From Actinomycetota bacterium (lineage in GTDB: Bacteria; Actinomycetota; Actinomycetes; Nanopelagicales; Nanopelagicaceae), in NCBI GenBank assembly GCA_003569265.1, contig BGON01000002.1, forward strand, positions 124,001 through 188,000: a DNA stretch of 64,000 nucleotides, read 5' to 3'. The position numbers were made by a program, and so were the translations under genes. Under the pieces are notes generated by a model. It did no database searches. It was not told where the DNA came from and worked only from the letters and a program-made list of their open reading frames with translations. This document shows, in pieces, positions 11,700-51,673 of this stretch (within the stretch, counting starts at the first letter, position 1; every line of letters starts with the position of its first letter).

Positions 11700-12572
11700 A
11701 TGAATGAGCTAGAGGCATCCTATGCCGAATGCAAAAGATTAAACTCTCTGCACGGCAAAACATATTACTTAGCCACACTCCTTCTGCCTAAAGGTAAACG
11801 AAAATATGTTCACGCCCTTTATGGTTTTGCCCGATATGCAGATGAAATCGTTGATGATCTTGCATCAACACTTACTGTGCAGGAGAAGACAGATGCATTA
11901 GGTGTGTGGGGTGAAAAGATTCTGCGGGACCTAAAAACTGGCAAGAGTGATGATGCAATCGGCCGGGCGCTCATTGATACGGTCAATACCTTTTCAATCC
12001 CCTACGAGCATTTTGAAGCATTCCTGCACTCAATGACTATGGATTTAACTGTGCAGGAATATCAAAGCTATGAAGATCTTGTGGAGTATGTCTATGGCTC
12101 TGCTGCAGTCATCGGCCTTGAGATGGTGCCAGTGTTAGGCGTTCTTGAAGATGATGCCTATGAATGTGCCAAGAAGCTCGGTATTGCCTTCCAATTAGCT
12201 AACTTCATCCGCGATGTGGGAGAGGACTTAGATCGAGGTCGTATTTATCTACCTATTGCTGAGTTAGCTGAGCACGGTGTCACACGAGAGATGCTTGAAG
12301 AACGAGTTCTTACGCCGCAAATCATTAGCGCACTCAAGTTTCAAATTGCCCGCGTGCGCCAACTCCAAGCCGAGGCAACACCGGGAATTCAAATGCTTGC
12401 AGCCTCTAGTCGTCCATGTATTGAGGCAGCAAGTGAGCTCTACTGCGGCATTGTTGATGAAGTAGAAAAGATTGGTTACGACATCTTTAACAAGCGTGCC
12501 AAGACTTCCACTGCACGCAGATTACGTGTCTTCATTACCGCTTATCTGAAGCGCCTAGCCGTATCCAATTAG
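11700..12572 (+). CDS. crtB: Phytoene synthase
   Basis: A 290-residue squalene/phytoene synthase. Both Asp-rich regions are visible: YADEIVDDL near residue 43 and the FQLANFIRDVGEDLDRGRIYLP segment near residue 160. It condenses two GGPP into phytoene. The ATG at 11700 directly follows the crtI stop. The final 38 bp overlap the convergent crtYd gene. Confidence 0.93.
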   Translation: MNELEASYAECKRLNSLHGKTYYLATLLLPKGKRKYVHALYGFARYADEIVDDLASTLTVQEKTDALGVWGEKILRDLKTGKSDDAIGRALIDTVNTFSIPYEHFEAFLHSMTMDLTVQEYQSYEDLVEYVYGSAAVIGLEMVPVLGVLEDDAYECAKKLGIAFQLANFIRDVGEDLDRGRIYLPIAELAEHGVTREMLEERVLTPQIISALKFQIARVRQLQAEATPGIQMLAASSRPCIEAASELYCGIVDEVEKIGYDIFNKRAKTSTARRLRVFITAYLKRLAVSN

Positions 12573-12834
12573 TTAAAACTCCAAGCACTAGCGCAAAACC
12601 AAAGAGCAGATCCTCCACTGGAGCTGATGCGATGCGAAGGCCAATAATGGCATCCGGGCTATACATCACAATATTTCTTGATGTCAGCCACCAATTAGTA
12701 AGCAATTGAAAACCAACAATGATTGTGTAAGAAGTCCAAAAGACTCTGCGCTTGAGCAACTGCGTATTAAAGAGATAGAGATCAAATGAAATGGCAAAAA
12801 GCACTGCAAAAATAGCAATCTGTGTGTAGGTCAC
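12535..12834 (-). CDS. crtYd: Lycopene cyclase subunit, CrtYd type
   Basis: A 99-residue three-helix membrane protein of the heterodimeric actinobacterial lycopene cyclase. The signature APVEDLLFGFALVL lies near residue 70, matching the PxE(E/D) motif of these subunits. It overlaps crtYc by 4 bp (ATGA arrangement), and CrtYc and CrtYd together close carotenoid end rings (beta or epsilon). It runs opposite to crtB and overlaps its end. Confidence 0.88.
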   Translation of the reverse strand: MTYTQIAIFAVLFAISFDLYLFNTQLLKRRVFWTSYTIIVGFQLLTNWWLTSRNIVMYSPDAIIGLRIASAPVEDLLFGFALVLGVLTNWIRLGASDKR

Positions 12835-13157
12835 TTATAGACCTGCCAATGCTTCTTAACTGTGCGCACGGCTTCAATTGTCATCAGAGCTGCAATGGGC
12901 ACAACTATGAAGAACAAATACTCTTCTAAAGGAATGCAAAAGGGTCCATAGATTCCCAGAATTTGTTCCTTATCAAAGAACCAATGGCCGTTGGCAATTG
13001 CATACTTGTCCCATGCGATAAATAGAAAAGCTACCGGAGCAATGGCAAGTGCTACTCGCTTGAATTGCTTGAGGACTCCGACCTTTAAAAACACTTCTAG
13101 CCAAAATGAGCCAACGATTGTGAAAACAATCATGGCTAGATATCCATACTTTTGCAC
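12831..13157 (-). CDS. crtYc: Lycopene cyclase subunit, CrtYc type
   Basis: A 108-residue membrane protein with three helices and the conserved IPLEEYLFFIVVP motif near residue 77. It is the first gene of the crtYc-crtYd pair. Its start lies about 20 bp from the TPP riboswitch of the divergent thiamine-transport operon, so the two promoters share a very short region. Confidence 0.88.
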   Translation of the reverse strand: MQKYGYLAMIVFTIVGSFWLEVFLKVGVLKQFKRVALAIAPVAFLFIAWDKYAIANGHWFFDKEQILGIYGPFCIPLEEYLFFIVVPIAALMTIEAVRTVKKHWQVYK

Positions 13158-13175
13158 GAGATAACGCTACTCTAA

Positions 13176-13258
13176 GAACTACGGGAGCCGCATGCGGCTG
13201 AGAGGGTTTGAAATTCAAACCGACCGATTGACCCGTCCGGTAATGCGGACGTGGAAAG
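13176..13258 (+). promoter_or_regulatory. TPP riboswitch (THI element)
   Basis: The conserved parts appear in order: GGCTGAGAGGG after a short hairpin (AGCCGCATGCGGCT), a second stem (GGTTTGAAATTCAAACC), the ACCGATTGACCCG joining strand, and the CCGGTAATGCGG loop followed by GTGGAAAGGA. The ribosome-binding site (GGAAAGGA) lies within or at the 3' edge of the aptamer, 6 bases before the pnuT ATG, which suggests translational control by sequestering it when TPP binds. Confidence 0.9.
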
Positions 13259-13264
13259 GAAACT

Positions 13265-13840
13265 ATGTCATTCACCGTTTTTACAGCCTGGGGTTATGAA
13301 GTCTCAGCACTTGAATTCATCGCCGCAATTACATCATTTACTGGAGTCTGGCTTGGCACAACTGGAAAGCGCATCACATGGCCGTGGTGGGCACTAAGCA
13401 GTGCTCTCTATATGGTCTTCTTTTATCAAGTTGATCTCTTTGCAAGTGCAGCTCTTCAAATAGTTTTTATCATTGCCGCTATCTGGGGTTGGCGTGACTG
13501 GGCACCAACAGGTGCAGCCCCTGGCTATTTGAATAATCGTCATCGCTTATTCATTGGTGTTGCAACCCTTATCACAGTTTCAGTTCTTTCCCCACTCCTA
13601 GCGCGCGCTGGCGCTGCGGCAACATGGTCTGATGCATTTTTACTTGTTGGTTCACTTGTTGCACAGATTGTTATGGTCTACCAAAAAGTTGAAGCATGGG
13701 TCCTCTGGCTCATTATTGATTTGGCCGGAACAGTTCAATATGCCTATCTGGGATATTGGTTTACTGCCGTTTTATACGCTCTCTTCACATTTGTAGCAAT
13801 CATCGGTTGGAATCGTTGGTATGTCCTTAATAGCAATTGA
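13265..13840 (+). CDS. pnuT: PnuC-family thiamine transporter (PnuT type)
   Basis: A 191-residue protein with about seven membrane helices and PnuC-family features: WPWWALSSALYMVFFYQVDLF, the WGWRDWAP motif, and YQKVEAWVLWLIIDLAGTVQY. PnuC relatives carry nicotinamide riboside, riboflavin (PnuX) or thiamine (PnuT). The TPP riboswitch directly upstream makes thiamine by far the most likely substrate. Its end overlaps the P-loop kinase gene by 20 bp, consistent with a transport-and-trap pair. Confidence 0.88.
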   Translation: MSFTVFTAWGYEVSALEFIAAITSFTGVWLGTTGKRITWPWWALSSALYMVFFYQVDLFASAALQIVFIIAAIWGWRDWAPTGAAPGYLNNRHRLFIGVATLITVSVLSPLLARAGAAATWSDAFLLVGSLVAQIVMVYQKVEAWVLWLIIDLAGTVQYAYLGYWFTAVLYALFTFVAIIGWNRWYVLNSN

Positions 13841-14312
13841 TGGCAGAGCAGGTGCTGGCAAGACAACGCTGGCTGCACGCTTGTTCGAAGAGCTATCCCT
13901 AGATAAAACCGTTGAAGTGATTCATATGGATGATCTGTATAACGGTTGGGAAAAAGCATTAGATGAGGGTTTAACTAAAACCTTAAAATCGATTGTGAAA
14001 TCGCATCACAACAAGGTTGCCTTTGAAATAGAGATCTTCAACTGGCATTCAATGTCTTTTGATTCAAAAGAAGTGATTAATCCCGTTGATATCTTGATTT
14101 TAGAAGGCGTGGGAGCCGGGCAAAAAGTAGTGCGAGATGCTGGTGCAACCCTGTATTGGCTAGATATCGATGCTGAAGTGGGAATACAACGGGTATTGAA
14201 TCGAGATGGCAATCAGATTGCATCACAGATGAAGCAATGGCAAATTTCGCAAGAGACTCATTTCATGCGAGATAAGACACGCGAAAATGCGGAACACATT
14301 CAAAGCTCGTAA
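13821..14312 (+). CDS. P-loop kinase, uridine-kinase-like (candidate thiamine-trapping kinase)
   Basis: A 163-residue nucleotide kinase-like protein with Walker A GRAGAGKTT (residues 8-16), an HMDDLYNGWEKAL segment like the substrate-binding loop of uridine kinases, a VDILILEGVGAG strand (Walker B position) and a C-terminal RDKTRENAEHI lid. It starts inside pnuT. PnuC transporters act by facilitated diffusion and need intracellular phosphorylation of the cargo, so this overlapping kinase is a plausible thiamine kinase or pyrophosphokinase. That is inference from context; it could equally be a nucleoside kinase of unknown substrate. Confidence 0.7.
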   Translation: MSLIAIDGRAGAGKTTLAARLFEELSLDKTVEVIHMDDLYNGWEKALDEGLTKTLKSIVKSHHNKVAFEIEIFNWHSMSFDSKEVINPVDILILEGVGAGQKVVRDAGATLYWLDIDAEVGIQRVLNRDGNQIASQMKQWQISQETHFMRDKTRENAEHIQSS

Positions 14313-41734: not shown

Positions 41735-42823
41735 CTATTTAGCTAATTTCAGGGCCTGCCTAATCACATTTCCAACAGATTCGACTTCCACCAGGAAGCC
41801 ATCATGGCCAAATGGCGATGAAATCCTCACAAGGGGCGCAGCTGTGGGCGCAAAGTCGGCGATCTCAGCCTGCAGGCGCACAGGAAAGAGGCGATCAGTA
41901 TCGATTGAGACGGCAACGACAGGAATAGTGATGGATTCAAGGGCGGCAACTACTCCTCCACGTCCTCGGCCAATGTCATGGGAGATCATCGCCTCAGTCA
42001 GGGCTATATAGGTATTGGCATCAAAACGATGGGCCAACTTATCGGCCTGATGATCAAGATATGACTCCACGGCATAGCGGCCCGTGTCATCACCTTGGAG
42101 TTCTCGGCCAAAACGAATATCCATCTCCGCTTCAGTTCTATACGTCAGATGGGCAATGCGTCTAGCTATTCCCATTCCTTCTATCGGACCACGCTCTTGT
42201 TCGTAGTAATCACCGTCATTGAAGTTAGGATCACTCTTTATTGCACGTATCTCAATGGACCATGTGCCGATCTGATCTCCTGTGGCAACTGCTGATGAAC
42301 CAATCGTGCAAATGGCACCAACACGGTGTGGCAACTGCACCGCCCACTCCAATGAACGCATTCCTCCCAAGGATGGCCCAACGGCTAAGCAGTACTTATC
42401 AATTCCTAGCGCATCACTAAATTGAATTTCAGCATTGACCATGTCGCGAATTGTCAGCGATGGAAATCGAGAGCCATATCTTTTGCCGTCAGGGGCAATC
42501 GATGAAGGCCCAGTTGATCCTTGGCACCCACCAATAACATTAGGACAGACAATAAAATATTTCTCTGTATCAAATGGCAGTCCAGGGCCCACCATTGATG
42601 GCCACCAACCAGGGACATCTGACCAACCAGTCATAGCGTGATTAACTAAAATCGCATTATCTTTATTGTTATTAAGTTCGCCCCAGCTTTGATAGGCGAT
42701 AGTCACATCTGTGAGTACTTCACCATCTTCAAGTCCAACATCACCAATCTTTAGAAAGCGCCGATCACCGGGTGCATGGTCTTCAAGCCATGCCCCGGTA
42801 ACCGAAGCGATTGTCTGTGGCAT
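41735..42823 (-). CDS. metX: Homoserine O-acetyltransferase
   Basis: A 362-residue alpha/beta-hydrolase that activates homoserine for methionine synthesis. Marks: ILVNHAMTGWSDV (oxyanion side), FIVCPNVIGGCQGSTGPSS, the nucleophile elbow VGPSLGGMRSLEWAVQ, and the C-terminal His in SPFGHDGFLVE. It starts right after the metY stop, so both lie on one message under the SAM-IV riboswitch. Confidence 0.92.
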   Translation of the reverse strand: MPQTIASVTGAWLEDHAPGDRRFLKIGDVGLEDGEVLTDVTIAYQSWGELNNNKDNAILVNHAMTGWSDVPGWWPSMVGPGLPFDTEKYFIVCPNVIGGCQGSTGPSSIAPDGKRYGSRFPSLTIRDMVNAEIQFSDALGIDKYCLAVGPSLGGMRSLEWAVQLPHRVGAICTIGSSAVATGDQIGTWSIEIRAIKSDPNFNDGDYYEQERGPIEGMGIARRIAHLTYRTEAEMDIRFGRELQGDDTGRYAVESYLDHQADKLAHRFDANTYIALTEAMISHDIGRGRGGVVAALESITIPVVAVSIDTDRLFPVRLQAEIADFAPTAAPLVRISSPFGHDGFLVEVESVGNVIRQALKLAK

Positions 42824-44146
42824 CTATTTCGCGGCAGCAAAACCATCTGTGAGATCTGCCTTGATATCTTCAATATCTTCAAGACCAACAGATAAACGGA
42901 TTAAGCCAGGCTTCACACCGGCATTGAGTAACTCTTCTGCCGATAGTTGTGAATGGGTCGTCGATGCTGGATGAATAACAAGTGATCTCACATCGCCGAT
43001 ATTTGCAACGTGTGAGTGCAAGCTCAGCCCTTCAACAAACTTCTTTCCAGCCTCTATCCCACCCTTGATTTCAAAGGAGAAGACTGAGCCTGAACCCTTA
43101 GGCGCATACTTTGTGGCCAGTTTGTTATAGGAGTTGCTAGGAAGGGAAGAGAAATGAACTTTCTCAACCTGTGGGTGGCTCTCCAGCCATGTTGCAACGG
43201 CCTTGGCATTTTCCAAATGTTGTTTCATACGAAGTGTCAGAGTCTCAAGACCTTGGGCCAATAACCATGCATTAAATGGGCTCACTGCAGCGCCAATATC
43301 GCGCAGCAAAGTCAGGCGAATCTTGAATATATAGGCCAAGTTGGCACCAAATGCACTGCCAACTCCTAGGGCTTGGGCATAAACAAGGCCGTGATAGGAA
43401 GGATCTGGAGTATTAAAGCTTGTGAACTTCTCTGGGTACAGTGCGTAATCAAAGTTACCTGAATCGACAATTGCACCCACTACGGCATTTCCATGACCGG
43501 CAAGGAACTTAGTTGCCGAGTGAATAACCACATCTGCGCCAAATTCGATTGGCTTAATAACATATGGAGTTGCCACAGTGTTATCAACAATCAATGGCAC
43601 ATGATTTTCATGGGCAACTTTTGCAACTGCTGCAATATCCAAAATATCATTATTTGGGTTTGAGATTGACTCACCAAAAAACGCCTTGGTATTAGGACGA
43701 ACTGCCTTGGCCCACTCTGCAGGATCATTAGGATTATCAACAAAAGTTACTTCCACACCAAATGTTGGCAATGTGTAATGGAACAAGTTATATGTTCCAC
43801 CATAGAGATACTTTGATGAAACGATGTGATCTCCTGCAGTTGCAACGGCTAAGACTGCAAAAGTTGTAGCAGCAGAACCTGATGCAAGAAGAAGAGCAGC
43901 AACGCCACCTTCTAATGATGCGATGCGCTTTTCAACAACATCTTGAGTTGGGTTCATGATGCGGGTATAGATATTGCCTAGCTCTGCCAAACCAAAAAGA
44001 TCTGCTGCATGCTTTGTATCGCGGAATTGATATGCAGTGGTTTGATACAGAGGAAGTGCACGTGCTCCTGTTGTTGGATCAGCAACTTGTCCGGTGTGTA
44101 TTTGACGCGTTTCGAAAGCTGCTTCTTCAAGTGAAAAGGTTGACAT
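42824..44146 (-). CDS. metY: O-acetylhomoserine sulfhydrylase/aminocarboxypropyltransferase
   Basis: A 440-residue Cys/Met-metabolism PLP enzyme. PLP features: LPLYQTTAYQF near the start, LLLASGSAATTFAVLA, and the lysine in DVVIHSATKFLAGHGNAVVG. It makes homocysteine from O-acetylhomoserine and sulfide. A good ribosome-binding site (GGGAGGA) lies 10 or so bases upstream and is embedded in alternative RNA structures downstream of the SAM-IV aptamer. Confidence 0.92.
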   Translation of the reverse strand: MSTFSLEEAAFETRQIHTGQVADPTTGARALPLYQTTAYQFRDTKHAADLFGLAELGNIYTRIMNPTQDVVEKRIASLEGGVAALLLASGSAATTFAVLAVATAGDHIVSSKYLYGGTYNLFHYTLPTFGVEVTFVDNPNDPAEWAKAVRPNTKAFFGESISNPNNDILDIAAVAKVAHENHVPLIVDNTVATPYVIKPIEFGADVVIHSATKFLAGHGNAVVGAIVDSGNFDYALYPEKFTSFNTPDPSYHGLVYAQALGVGSAFGANLAYIFKIRLTLLRDIGAAVSPFNAWLLAQGLETLTLRMKQHLENAKAVATWLESHPQVEKVHFSSLPSNSYNKLATKYAPKGSGSVFSFEIKGGIEAGKKFVEGLSLHSHVANIGDVRSLVIHPASTTHSQLSAEELLNAGVKPGLIRLSVGLEDIEDIKADLTDGFAAAK

Positions 44147-44228
44147 GTAAGTAATTCCTCCCAGTTATGGGGAACACCTAAAAATAGATATGCCAACAAG
44201 GGCCATAACTAGTGGAATTAGGTGTTCC
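44147..44228 (-). promoter_or_regulatory. Expression platform between SAM-IV aptamer and metY
   Basis: Two competing pairings are visible. Sequestering form: 44214-44220 with 44152-44158 (7 bp, covers the GGAGGAA ribosome-binding site) plus 44203-44210 with 44163-44170 (8 bp). Alternative form: a perfect 10-bp stem, 44219-44228 (GGAACACCTA on the minus strand) with 44171-44180, which shares bases with the first and leaves the ribosome-binding site free. This suggests translational control of metY. Confidence 0.65.
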
Positions 44229-44232
44229 ACGC

Positions 44233-44342
44233 TTATCGACTGCGTTGTGCTAGTCGATCTGGTCTTCACCCGGAGCACCCCACCGTGGTGGAGGGTTGCC
44301 GTCTAGTAAGCCGGGGCTATGCACTAGAACTCATGACCTGGG
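44233..44342 (-). promoter_or_regulatory. SAM-IV riboswitch
   Basis: Read on the minus strand, the conserved actinobacterial SAM-IV core is clear: GGTCATGAG at the start, then AGCCCCGGCTTACTAG, ACGGCAACCCTCC, CACGGTGGGGTG and CTCCGGGTGAAGAC, closing the outer helix. It is followed by a hairpin with perfect 7-bp arms (ATCGACT/AGTCGAT at 44235-44258), also typical of this class. It controls metY-metX in response to S-adenosylmethionine. Confidence 0.9.
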
Positions 44343-49831: not shown

Positions 49832-50433
49832 CACTTATCCCCCTTTGCCAATAATCGTTCAACGTACTTTGCCAATACATCAACTTCCACATTAACTAAA
49901 TCTCCAGCACTTTTTCCTGAAAGATTGGTGGACTCTAAAGTCTCTGGAATCAACCACACAGTGACAACATTGCTTGCATCATTAATGCCTCCCACGGTCA
50001 GTGATACTCCATCGAGGCAGATAGAGCCTTGATTAACAATATATTTTGAAAGGTGGGAGGGAACAGTGATATCAAACTGGGCCCATTTATCTCCTGGTGT
50101 GAGCCCAACAACGCTTGCTACACCATCAACATGTCCCTGCACCATGTGTCCGCCCAAACGTGAATTTAACTGCGCAGCTAATTCAAGGTTGACGGTGCTT
50201 GCAACACTCAGTTGCGAGAGTGATGTGAGAGAAAGCGTTTGAATCATGACATCTGCGGTGAAAGTGGTGCCAGAGATGGCTGTAGCGGTCAAACACACGC
50301 CGTTCACAGCCACCGAATCCCCCATTGCAATCTCACCAATCAGTTTTGGTGCATTGATTGTGAAAACAGCAGAGCTCTCGCCCTTTTCAATGGCGGTAAT
50401 TGAACCAAGTTCGCCAATAAGTCCTGTAAACAT
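49831..50433 (-). CDS. ribE: Riboflavin synthase alpha subunit
   Basis: A 200-residue protein with two lumazine-binding repeats (MFTGLIGELGSITAIEKG ... VNGVCLTATAI and GGHMVQGHVDGVASV ... DGVSLTVGGI). It dismutates two ribityllumazines to riboflavin. ATG 50433 overlaps the ribD stop (TGATG), indicating translational coupling; an upstream GTG is one codon earlier. Confidence 0.92.
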   Translation of the reverse strand: MFTGLIGELGSITAIEKGESSAVFTINAPKLIGEIAMGDSVAVNGVCLTATAISGTTFTADVMIQTLSLTSLSQLSVASTVNLELAAQLNSRLGGHMVQGHVDGVASVVGLTPGDKWAQFDITVPSHLSKYIVNQGSICLDGVSLTVGGINDASNVVTVWLIPETLESTNLSGKSAGDLVNVEVDVLAKYVERLLAKGDK

Positions 50434-51445
50434 CACTCACCATTCCTAATGCGATATACCGATTTAACATCGCCATCTAGAACCTGGGTGCTGATGTGGT
50501 CCATCCGCATTTGGTCAGTAATCGTCGTTGGGTAATCAAAGGCAAAAAACGGCCTTCCTGTGCCCAATAGCGTGGGTGCCTGATAGAAAACAAGCTCATC
50601 CATCAAGCAGTGATCCACCATGGCACTAGCCAGAGTGGGCCCTGCCTCAACAAGGACGTGATTAACACCTAATTCATTCAATTTTTCCACCAAGACATCT
50701 AGATCCTTCGACTTAACAACAACGGTCTGGGCAGCAGAATCAAAAACAGCAGAATCCTTTGGTAGCTCTTGCTCCCCGCAAATAACGCGAATGGGATTGC
50801 CTGCATACCCTGCAAACTCTCCCCGTGGGATCAAATGTGGGTTATCTGCAATAACAGTGTTAGTACCTACAAGGATTGCATCAGCTTGGCGGCGCAGTAC
50901 CTGCACATCGCCCCGAGATGTCTCATTTGTAATCCACTTCGATGTTCCATCAGCGGCAGCAACTTTGCCATCTAGGGTTGCGGCAACTTTCCATGTGAAA
51001 AATGGGCGGTTCTTTTAATCTTCATCAGCCAGGCCCGGTTTGAATAGGCAGCTTCATCTTTAAGGACGCCTTCAATAACAGTGACACCTGCTGCTCGTAG
51101 AGCATCTGCTCCCCCGGCTGCCTTTTCATTGGGGTCTGCAACTGCAAAGACAACTGTTGTAATGCCTGCATCGATGATGGCTTGAACACAGGCTCCTGTG
51201 CGCCCGCTGTGATTGCATGGCTCTAATGAAACAACGATCGTTGCACCTTTTGCTTTGACGCCGGCTGCCTTAATGGCAACAACTTCTGCGTGATCTGGGG
51301 AGTTCACACGATCATGAAAACCTTCACCGACAACATTTCCATTTGAATCAATAATTACTGCGCCAACAATTGGGTTGGGTGCCGTTTTTCCTAAAGCCTT
51401 TTCGGCAAGGGCAATGGCACGTTGCATGGCAACTGTGTAATCCAT
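50433..51445 (-). CDS. ribD: RibD deaminase/reductase (frame broken by 1-base indel)
   Basis: Start ATG 51445 is set by a GGGGAG site 6 bases upstream. The deaminase half has the HAEVVAI and EPCNHSGRTGAC zinc motifs. The frame stops after about 157 residues, but the reductase half (VLRRQADAILVGTNTVIADN ... VLVEAGPTLASAM) continues in another frame. Restoring one A at 51010-51012 gives continuous KRNRPFFTWKVAATLDGKVA and a 337-residue RibD. First gene of ribD-ribE-ribBA-ribH. Confidence 0.87.
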
Positions 51446-51477
51446 TTTTAACTCCCCTACCCCAACTCTAGAAACGA

Positions 51478-51538
51478 GTAACCGGGGTGGGTTGTGCAAA
51501 AAGAAATGCACAAAGAAGGTAGGCAAGAACCTACCCTT
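51478..51538 (-). promoter_or_regulatory. Hairpins after the FMN aptamer (possible expression platform)
   Basis: On the minus strand, GGTAGGTTCTTGCCTACC (18 bases, stem of 6 bp) is followed by TTCTTTGT, then TGTGCA...TGCACA forms a second stem ahead of the ribD ribosome-binding site. The first resembles a weak intrinsic terminator, so transcriptional control is possible, but I cannot show the alternative pairing with the aptamer. Confidence 0.5.
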
Positions 51539-51542
51539 TGTT

Positions 51543-51662
51543 GGTTTCCTCTCATCCGGACTTTAACCGTCGGTCCCAGAATTTCACTGAGTCAACCGAT
51601 ACCTGGCTGGCATCGGGTCGCGGACTATAACCGCCGGTTCGAAATTACATCGACCCCGGAAA
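51543..51662 (-). promoter_or_regulatory. FMN riboswitch (RFN element)
   Basis: On the minus strand the RFN blocks appear in order: TTCCGGGGTCGATGTAATTT, CGAACCGGCGGTTATAGTCC, GCGACCC, then GTGAAATTCTGGGACCGACGG, TTAAAGTCCGGATGAGAGGA. It lies in front of ribD in the riboflavin operon orientation, so FMN excess would repress that operon. Confidence 0.93.
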
Positions 51663-51673
51663 CAACAGCATAA

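Follow-up and report, generated by a model that had tools for sequence, protein, structure and literature searches.

Organization of the TPP–pnuT–kinase unit

The window (the whole stretch of DNA analysed, 64,000 nt in length) contains a compact forward-strand unit in which a riboswitch aptamer leads directly into two overlapping genes. Its features are as follows:

13171–13274 (+): TPP riboswitch aptamer, divergent (RF00059, 41.1 bits, E 1.2e-6; covariation over 41 homologues)
13253–13260 (+): likely Shine-Dalgarno sequence, GGAAAGGA (read directly from the sequence)
13265–13840 (+): pnuT-like gene for a PnuC-family transporter of 191 aa, predicted thiamine facilitator (PF04973, E 1.1e-35)
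13821–13840 (+): 20-bp overlap between the end of pnuT and the start of the kinase gene (ORF coordinates)
13821–14312 (+): gene for a P-loop kinase of 163 aa with a uridine-kinase/PRK fold, proposed thiamine kinase (PF00485, fold and context)

A preliminary description of this DNA had placed a TPP element ahead of a PnuC-family gene, and a uridine-kinase-like P-loop protein overlapping the transporter by 20 bp; both placements are borne out by the RNA and protein family models and the ORF coordinates. The transporter belongs clearly to its family (123.7 bits for PF04973, against a cut-off of 27.3), and TPP-element control, a mark of PnuT, is predicted from the aptamer directly upstream of the ORF. 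From family and context, the protein is predicted to be PnuT-like, with thiamine as its cargo. The overlap makes translational coupling of pnuT and the kinase gene probable. The opposite strand (12535–13157, −) encodes two short lycopene cyclase half-proteins (PF18916), which converge on a phytoene synthase gene and diverge from the TPP unit.

The source of the DNA is a member of the acI lineage (Nanopelagicaceae). Its nearest named relatives are Nanopelagicaceae and uncultured actinobacterial MAGs, with acI-type carotenoid genes and small genomes, and its genus is probably ‘Ca. Planktophila’. Because this genome (641,603 bases) is only 42% complete, absences were scored on relatives, and pathway gene content was read from 32 congeners (≥90% complete, ≤5% contaminated) plus the genome itself, 33 in all. 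Wider comparisons used sets of 101 genomes for the genus, 201 for the order and 396 for the phylum.

A divergent TPP aptamer

With 41.1 bits (the E value of 1.2e-6 comes from a 601-base search), the aptamer does not reach the curated RF00059 cut-off of 54.3 bits, a level attained in none of the 101 congeners and in 13 of the 201 genomes of the order. For this reason the TPP element is absent from a gathering-level Rfam scan of the window, which lists only a SAM-IV and an FMN element. The SAM-IV riboswitch (44224–44338, −; 102.7 bits) lies upstream of ORFs resembling MetY (42824–44146) and MetX (41735–42823), and the FMN riboswitch (51540–51667, −; 101.2 bits) lies upstream of an apparent riboflavin operon. 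A RibD-like frame at 50433–51526 (−) is apparently split into ORFs 50972–51526 and 50433–50906, for which a frameshift, a misassembly or the presence of two separate genes could be responsible.

The RNA alignment consists of the window element and 40 further loci. The CUGAGAG core is present in all 41 rows, a conservation that is not evidence in itself because the rows were picked by that motif. Pairs of P2, P3, P3a, P4 and P5 are kept in 32 to 41 of the 41 elements, and compensatory, two-sided changes occur in P3, P3a, P4 and P5; one P4 pair, for example, is C-G in 19 elements, A-U in 11 and G-C in 11. The window element thus contains the aptamer core (P2, P3, P3a, P4/P5 and the CUGAGA motif), and a conserved P1 is not apparent in the alignment of 41 elements. 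On this pattern of pairing, we consider 13171–13274 to be a real TPP aptamer despite its sub-cut-off score.

The likely Shine-Dalgarno sequence ends 4 nt ahead of the pnuT start and adjoins the 3' strand of P4 (13251–13254), and the aligned elements repeatedly show a GGAA-rich stretch in this position. Since the likely ribosome site abuts the P4 strand, the arrangement suggests that the aptamer controls pnuT at the level of translation.

Linkage and conservation

The gene pair noted in the preliminary description recurs across the genus and the family. The kinase is found in 95 of the 101 congeners, including all 32 near-complete ones. The TPP model gives 73 matches in 72 of the 101 congeners, and in 72 of these the kinase follows downstream, in the same orientation, at a distance of 546–614 nt; the one exception sits at the very edge of its contig, which is 3.7 kb long. 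In 63 of the 65 genomes whose loci were read, pnuT lies directly 5' of the kinase (in the other two, the locus is without one partner), and 62 of these 63 carry the aptamer core upstream of the pair, including genomes that the model search had missed.

The same arrangement extends through the order. Adjacency of pnuT and kinase holds in at least 20 of 32 PnuT genomes (20/20 of those with both positions among the matches listed), and each of 20 regions fetched around PnuT, including those of G115, G119 and G131 from the remaining 12 genomes, contains the kinase. In all 16 cases compared, the TPP element is immediately upstream of the PnuT match or overlaps its start.

The kinase protein

Both profile and fold place the protein in the uridine-cytidine kinase/phosphoribulokinase superfamily (PF00485, 32.1 bits; cut-off 22), with which it shares the fold, the Walker A motif and an acidic DxxY motif, although it is short (163 aa) and scores far under the uridine kinase cut-off (TIGR00235, 41.2 bits against an equivalog cut-off of 220.3). 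On the latter score, uridine kinase was rejected as the annotation of 13821–14312. The best family is NCBIfam PRK06547 (NF005115), a “hypothetical protein” model that gives no function; it is matched by 27 of 27 homologues, and the window kinase is a divergent outlier (92.7 bits, below the cut-off of 173). Neither of the established thiamine-phosphorylating families appears among the best-scoring models: the TPK catalytic domain (PF04263) is not among the best 25 of 37 Pfam families, and ThiK (TIGR02721, cut-off 299.45 bits) is not among the best 25 of 27 NCBIfam families.

The 27 homologues are 39–88% identical to the window kinase and share an invariant set of residues (Walker A K14, D37, Y40, G42, W43, W75, E95, R124, R128 and W140). 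The catalytic residues are among these, and D37, W43 and W75 are the predicted base and ring contacts. An AlphaFold model built from nine sequences has a mean pLDDT of 81 (55–76 in the last third) and superposes on human uridine-cytidine kinase 2 (UCK2) with a VIA Z of 17.0 (rmsd 2.4 over 160 residues); it also matches PRKs and pantothenate kinases. In the stretch aligned to the UCK2 base-binding segment, where His117 of UCK2 has its role, a W is invariant and a conserved His is lacking. A profile search against the PDB likewise returns uridine kinases and PRKs; the top phmmer matches there are repeat proteins over residues 6–51, and were treated as chance. The predicted fold is shared with kinases that act in phosphotransfer to small molecules, and a shared fold alone says nothing about substrate.

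Viral contigs gave no relative. Across the phylum, matches (E ≤1e-12) occur in 43 of 396 genomes, including the source genome. Thiamine context was not seen in the 1.5-kb flanks of 29 phylum loci, where ORF calling is poor in GC-rich DNA; the distant locus L104, also GC-rich with poor ORF calling, similarly has no readable thiamine context. We therefore propose the thiamine role for the acI clade, and the wider family, judged from these neighborhoods, does not appear thiamine-specific on present evidence.

Thiamine pathway gene content

ThiL is matched in all 33 genomes, 29 of them above the curated cut-off; of the others, three fall just short and one (G046) has a fragment. The ThiL of the source genome is above the TIGR01379 cut-off, at 206.6 bits. 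The TPK catalytic domain (PF04263) is found in none of the 33 genomes, in a search whose control gave a match in 8 of 14 known genomes, and ThiK above its cut-off is found in none of 51. Weak ThiK-model matches do occur in 32 of the 51, a point that counts against the kinase proposal, and one that was checked is a choline-kinase/APH-like protein.

For ThiE (PF02581), 23 of the 33 genomes have matches at E ≤0.01, all of them fragments, and G039 alone passes the cut-off, through summed fragments (32.5 bits). These weak matches are fragments of 15–21 bits, and one of them, on checking, proved to belong to the KDPG aldolase family. Partial ThiD matches (PF08543) are present in 26 of the 33 genomes, above the cut-off in 11; a weak match that was checked turned out to be a hexose kinase of the PfkB type. 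Neither ThiE nor ThiD was found intact in the 32 near-complete congeners or the partial source genome. In the single-contig, 100% complete genome G064, the searches detect PnuT, the kinase, a ThiL that falls marginally short of its cut-off (181.3 bits) and a partial PF08543 match of 28.8 bits; TPK, ThiE and ThiK give no match there.

With ThiL kept and ThiE, TPK and ThiK not found, a source of TMP is needed, and the remaining one would be a thiamine kinase of another family. Judged by gene content, the thiamine-to-TMP kinase is the missing step in acI genomes. The lack of tpk matches, a point that the preliminary description had put forward for checking, favors its proposal that a kinase unlike classical TPK acts on PnuT-borne thiamine, which genomic context supports. 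Nor did a separate TPK under its own TPP element, considered there as a counter-case, come to light; the source genome, searched at 42% completeness, gave no further TPP element.

Kinase and importer across the order

The kinase is present in 191 of the 201 order genomes and in 105 of the 108 near-complete ones; all three near-complete genomes without it belong to genus g8. Of the ten genomes without a match, four belong to g8 and one to g15; the other five have a completeness of 70–86%. From the order set we picked 47 genomes, the five kinase-less ones of g8 and g15 and 42 that bear the kinase, for a joined-query search.

All 42 kinase-bearing genomes have a thiamine-type importer, which is PnuT in 32, ThiB in nine and YkoE-like in one. 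This last genome (G130) has neither PnuT nor ThiB, and carries a YkoE-like gene (PF09819) after a TPP element. The five kinase-less genomes all have ThiG, ThiE, ThiD and the HMP importer CytX, and in this search PnuT, ThiB and ThiC are absent from all five. PnuT and ThiB occur together in none of the 47. Kinase presence in these 47 genomes thus tracks thiamine import and not HMP import; the five kinase-less genomes represent two genera and may reflect a single event. Two kinase-bearing genomes, G103 and G130, additionally encode ThiC, ThiE and ThiD. At L171 (G103) and L183 (G130) a TPP element precedes thiC-thiM-thiE-thiD, and ThiG was not found in either genome by the joined-query search; they appear to make the pyrimidine themselves and would depend on an external supply of thiazole or thiamine.

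Alternative thiamine modules share one locus, before a PASTA Ser/Thr kinase gene. In six ThiB/YkoE genomes the P-loop kinase occupies this slot without PnuT or TPP element, and the TPP elements are elsewhere, before thiB-thiP, thiC-thiM-thiE-thiD or ykoE. In the g8 and g15 loci read (L174, L175, L178 and L179), the slot is taken by a TPP element with thiO and thiG behind it, where relatives have TPP-pnuT-kinase or the kinase alone. CytX lies behind a TPP element in three of the g8 genomes read. Because the kinase keeps its slot in the ThiB/YkoE genomes without a TPP element, synteny could by itself account for some of this retention.

In a phylogeny of 37 kinases, genomes without PnuT require at least three changes of importer (starred branches), four in the best tree, and a single origin is rejected (AU p 8.1e-9). 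Shuffled importer labels require 5.7 changes on average, and 18 of 500 shufflings are as low as observed, so the importer label is partly clustered on the tree. Both importer types occur within genera g2, g4 and g9. These multiple changes imply that the kinase has been kept through several importer exchanges.

Comparison with known systems

Several known systems resemble the unit in part. PnuC transporters work with NadR or NRK kinases on nicotinamide riboside, by facilitated diffusion and trapping by the cytosolic kinase, and PnuT reportedly works by facilitated diffusion as well, as Jaehme et al. are said to have found in 2018. The likeness extends to the kinase, since NRK1 belongs to the same superfamily (with a weak profile match; VIA Z 11.5, rmsd 3.4 over 137 residues), although the cofactor differs and control here would be by TPP. 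In E. coli, ThiK (YcfN) carries out the reaction proposed here, thiamine to TMP, with ThiL to follow; however, ThiK belongs to the APH/choline-kinase superfamily, whereas the window protein is a P-loop kinase.

A precedent is the Bacteroides operon TPP-pnuT-tnr3, which likewise has a TPP element, a Pnu-type inner-membrane thiamine carrier and an adjacent enzyme that phosphorylates thiamine, as we propose for the kinase (PMC5613172). There the enzyme is a TPK (Tnr3), whereas here it is a P-loop kinase, TPK was not found, and ThiL would have to finish the route. Within acI itself, Kang et al. (2017) describe THI elements upstream of pnuC-like genes in four of four genomes, propose PnuT, and report nearly all de novo and salvage thiamine enzymes as missing (PMC5301498). 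Lineage, element, transporter and thiamine auxotrophy are those seen here, but their passages on this subject name no kinase, and the kinase with ThiL would complete the route. The TPP element and PnuT of acI have accordingly been on record since 2017, and the kinase assignment, which its context strongly supports, is new as far as we searched: the literature searched, most subscription papers lying outside it, yielded no account of a thiamine kinase of the P-loop or uridine-kinase-like type.

Proposed route and alternatives

We propose, with a probability of roughly 0.78 on this genomic evidence, that the P-loop kinase traps PnuT-imported thiamine as TMP and that ThiL completes TPP. At low TPP, the aptamer would leave the pnuT ribosome site free; thiamine would diffuse into the cell through PnuT, and the kinase would convert thiamine and ATP to TMP and ADP, so that thiamine is trapped. 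The unlinked ThiL would then convert TMP to TPP. On this reading the host is an acI actinobacterium auxotrophic for thiamine, and the locus is its full thiamine-salvage unit, in which the kinase, recruited from the uridine kinase/phosphoribulokinase superfamily, would be a non-orthologous replacement of both TPK and ThiK.

A one-step trap would be simplest, and the kinase might instead be a pyrophosphokinase that, like TPK, takes thiamine directly to TPP, with ThiL a leftover or otherwise used. The predicted fold is nearest to uridine-cytidine kinases, PRKs and pantothenate kinases, which transfer one phosphate, and ThiL is retained in all 33 genomes despite their streamlined size. We regard this alternative as distinctly unlikely, even with a TPK as the neighbor of pnuT in the known Bacteroides operon (PMC5613172). 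Alternatively, the kinase may act on a nucleoside or other metabolite and hitch-hike in a conserved slot, while another enzyme phosphorylates thiamine. Its superfamily is that of uridine kinases, it occupies the slot without pnuT in the six genomes mentioned above, and its distant relatives have no visible thiamine context. Yet the uridine kinase model gives it only 41 bits against a cut-off of 220; among the 47 genomes it is missing from those that lack thiamine import (5/5) and present in those that have it (42/42); in PnuT genomes it belongs to the pair predicted to be under TPP control; and the TPK and ThiK searches found no other candidate for thiamine phosphorylation. An independent kinase of this sort seems improbable to us.

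The pair could also salvage a thiamine precursor or breakdown product (HMP or thiazole) rather than thiamine, as HMP importers too are TPP-controlled, CytX in three of the g8 genomes read being an example. However, joining the two moieties needs ThiE and ThiD, which were not found intact in the kinase-bearing genomes tested except G103 and G130, and the HMP-importing genomes are without the kinase. We consider salvage of this kind very unlikely; a role as HMP or thiazole kinase is unlikely on the same ThiE and ThiD evidence.

Implications for acI actinobacteria

The acI actinobacteria are among the most abundant freshwater bacteria. They depend on external vitamin B1, and the published reconstruction supplied no enzymes for their salvage route. 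A new family of P-loop thiamine kinase, unrelated to TPK and ThiK, is likely to be standard in acI, traveling with whichever thiamine importer the lineage has and lost from view where a lineage relies on HMP and on thiazole of its own making. If this is true, acI would have a complete and testable thiamine salvage route, and an orphan kinase family would receive a name. The view that salvage genes are “missing” in streamlined plankton would then need correcting, and the presence or absence of the kinase would serve as a marker in metagenomes, distinguishing importers of thiamine from importers of HMP.
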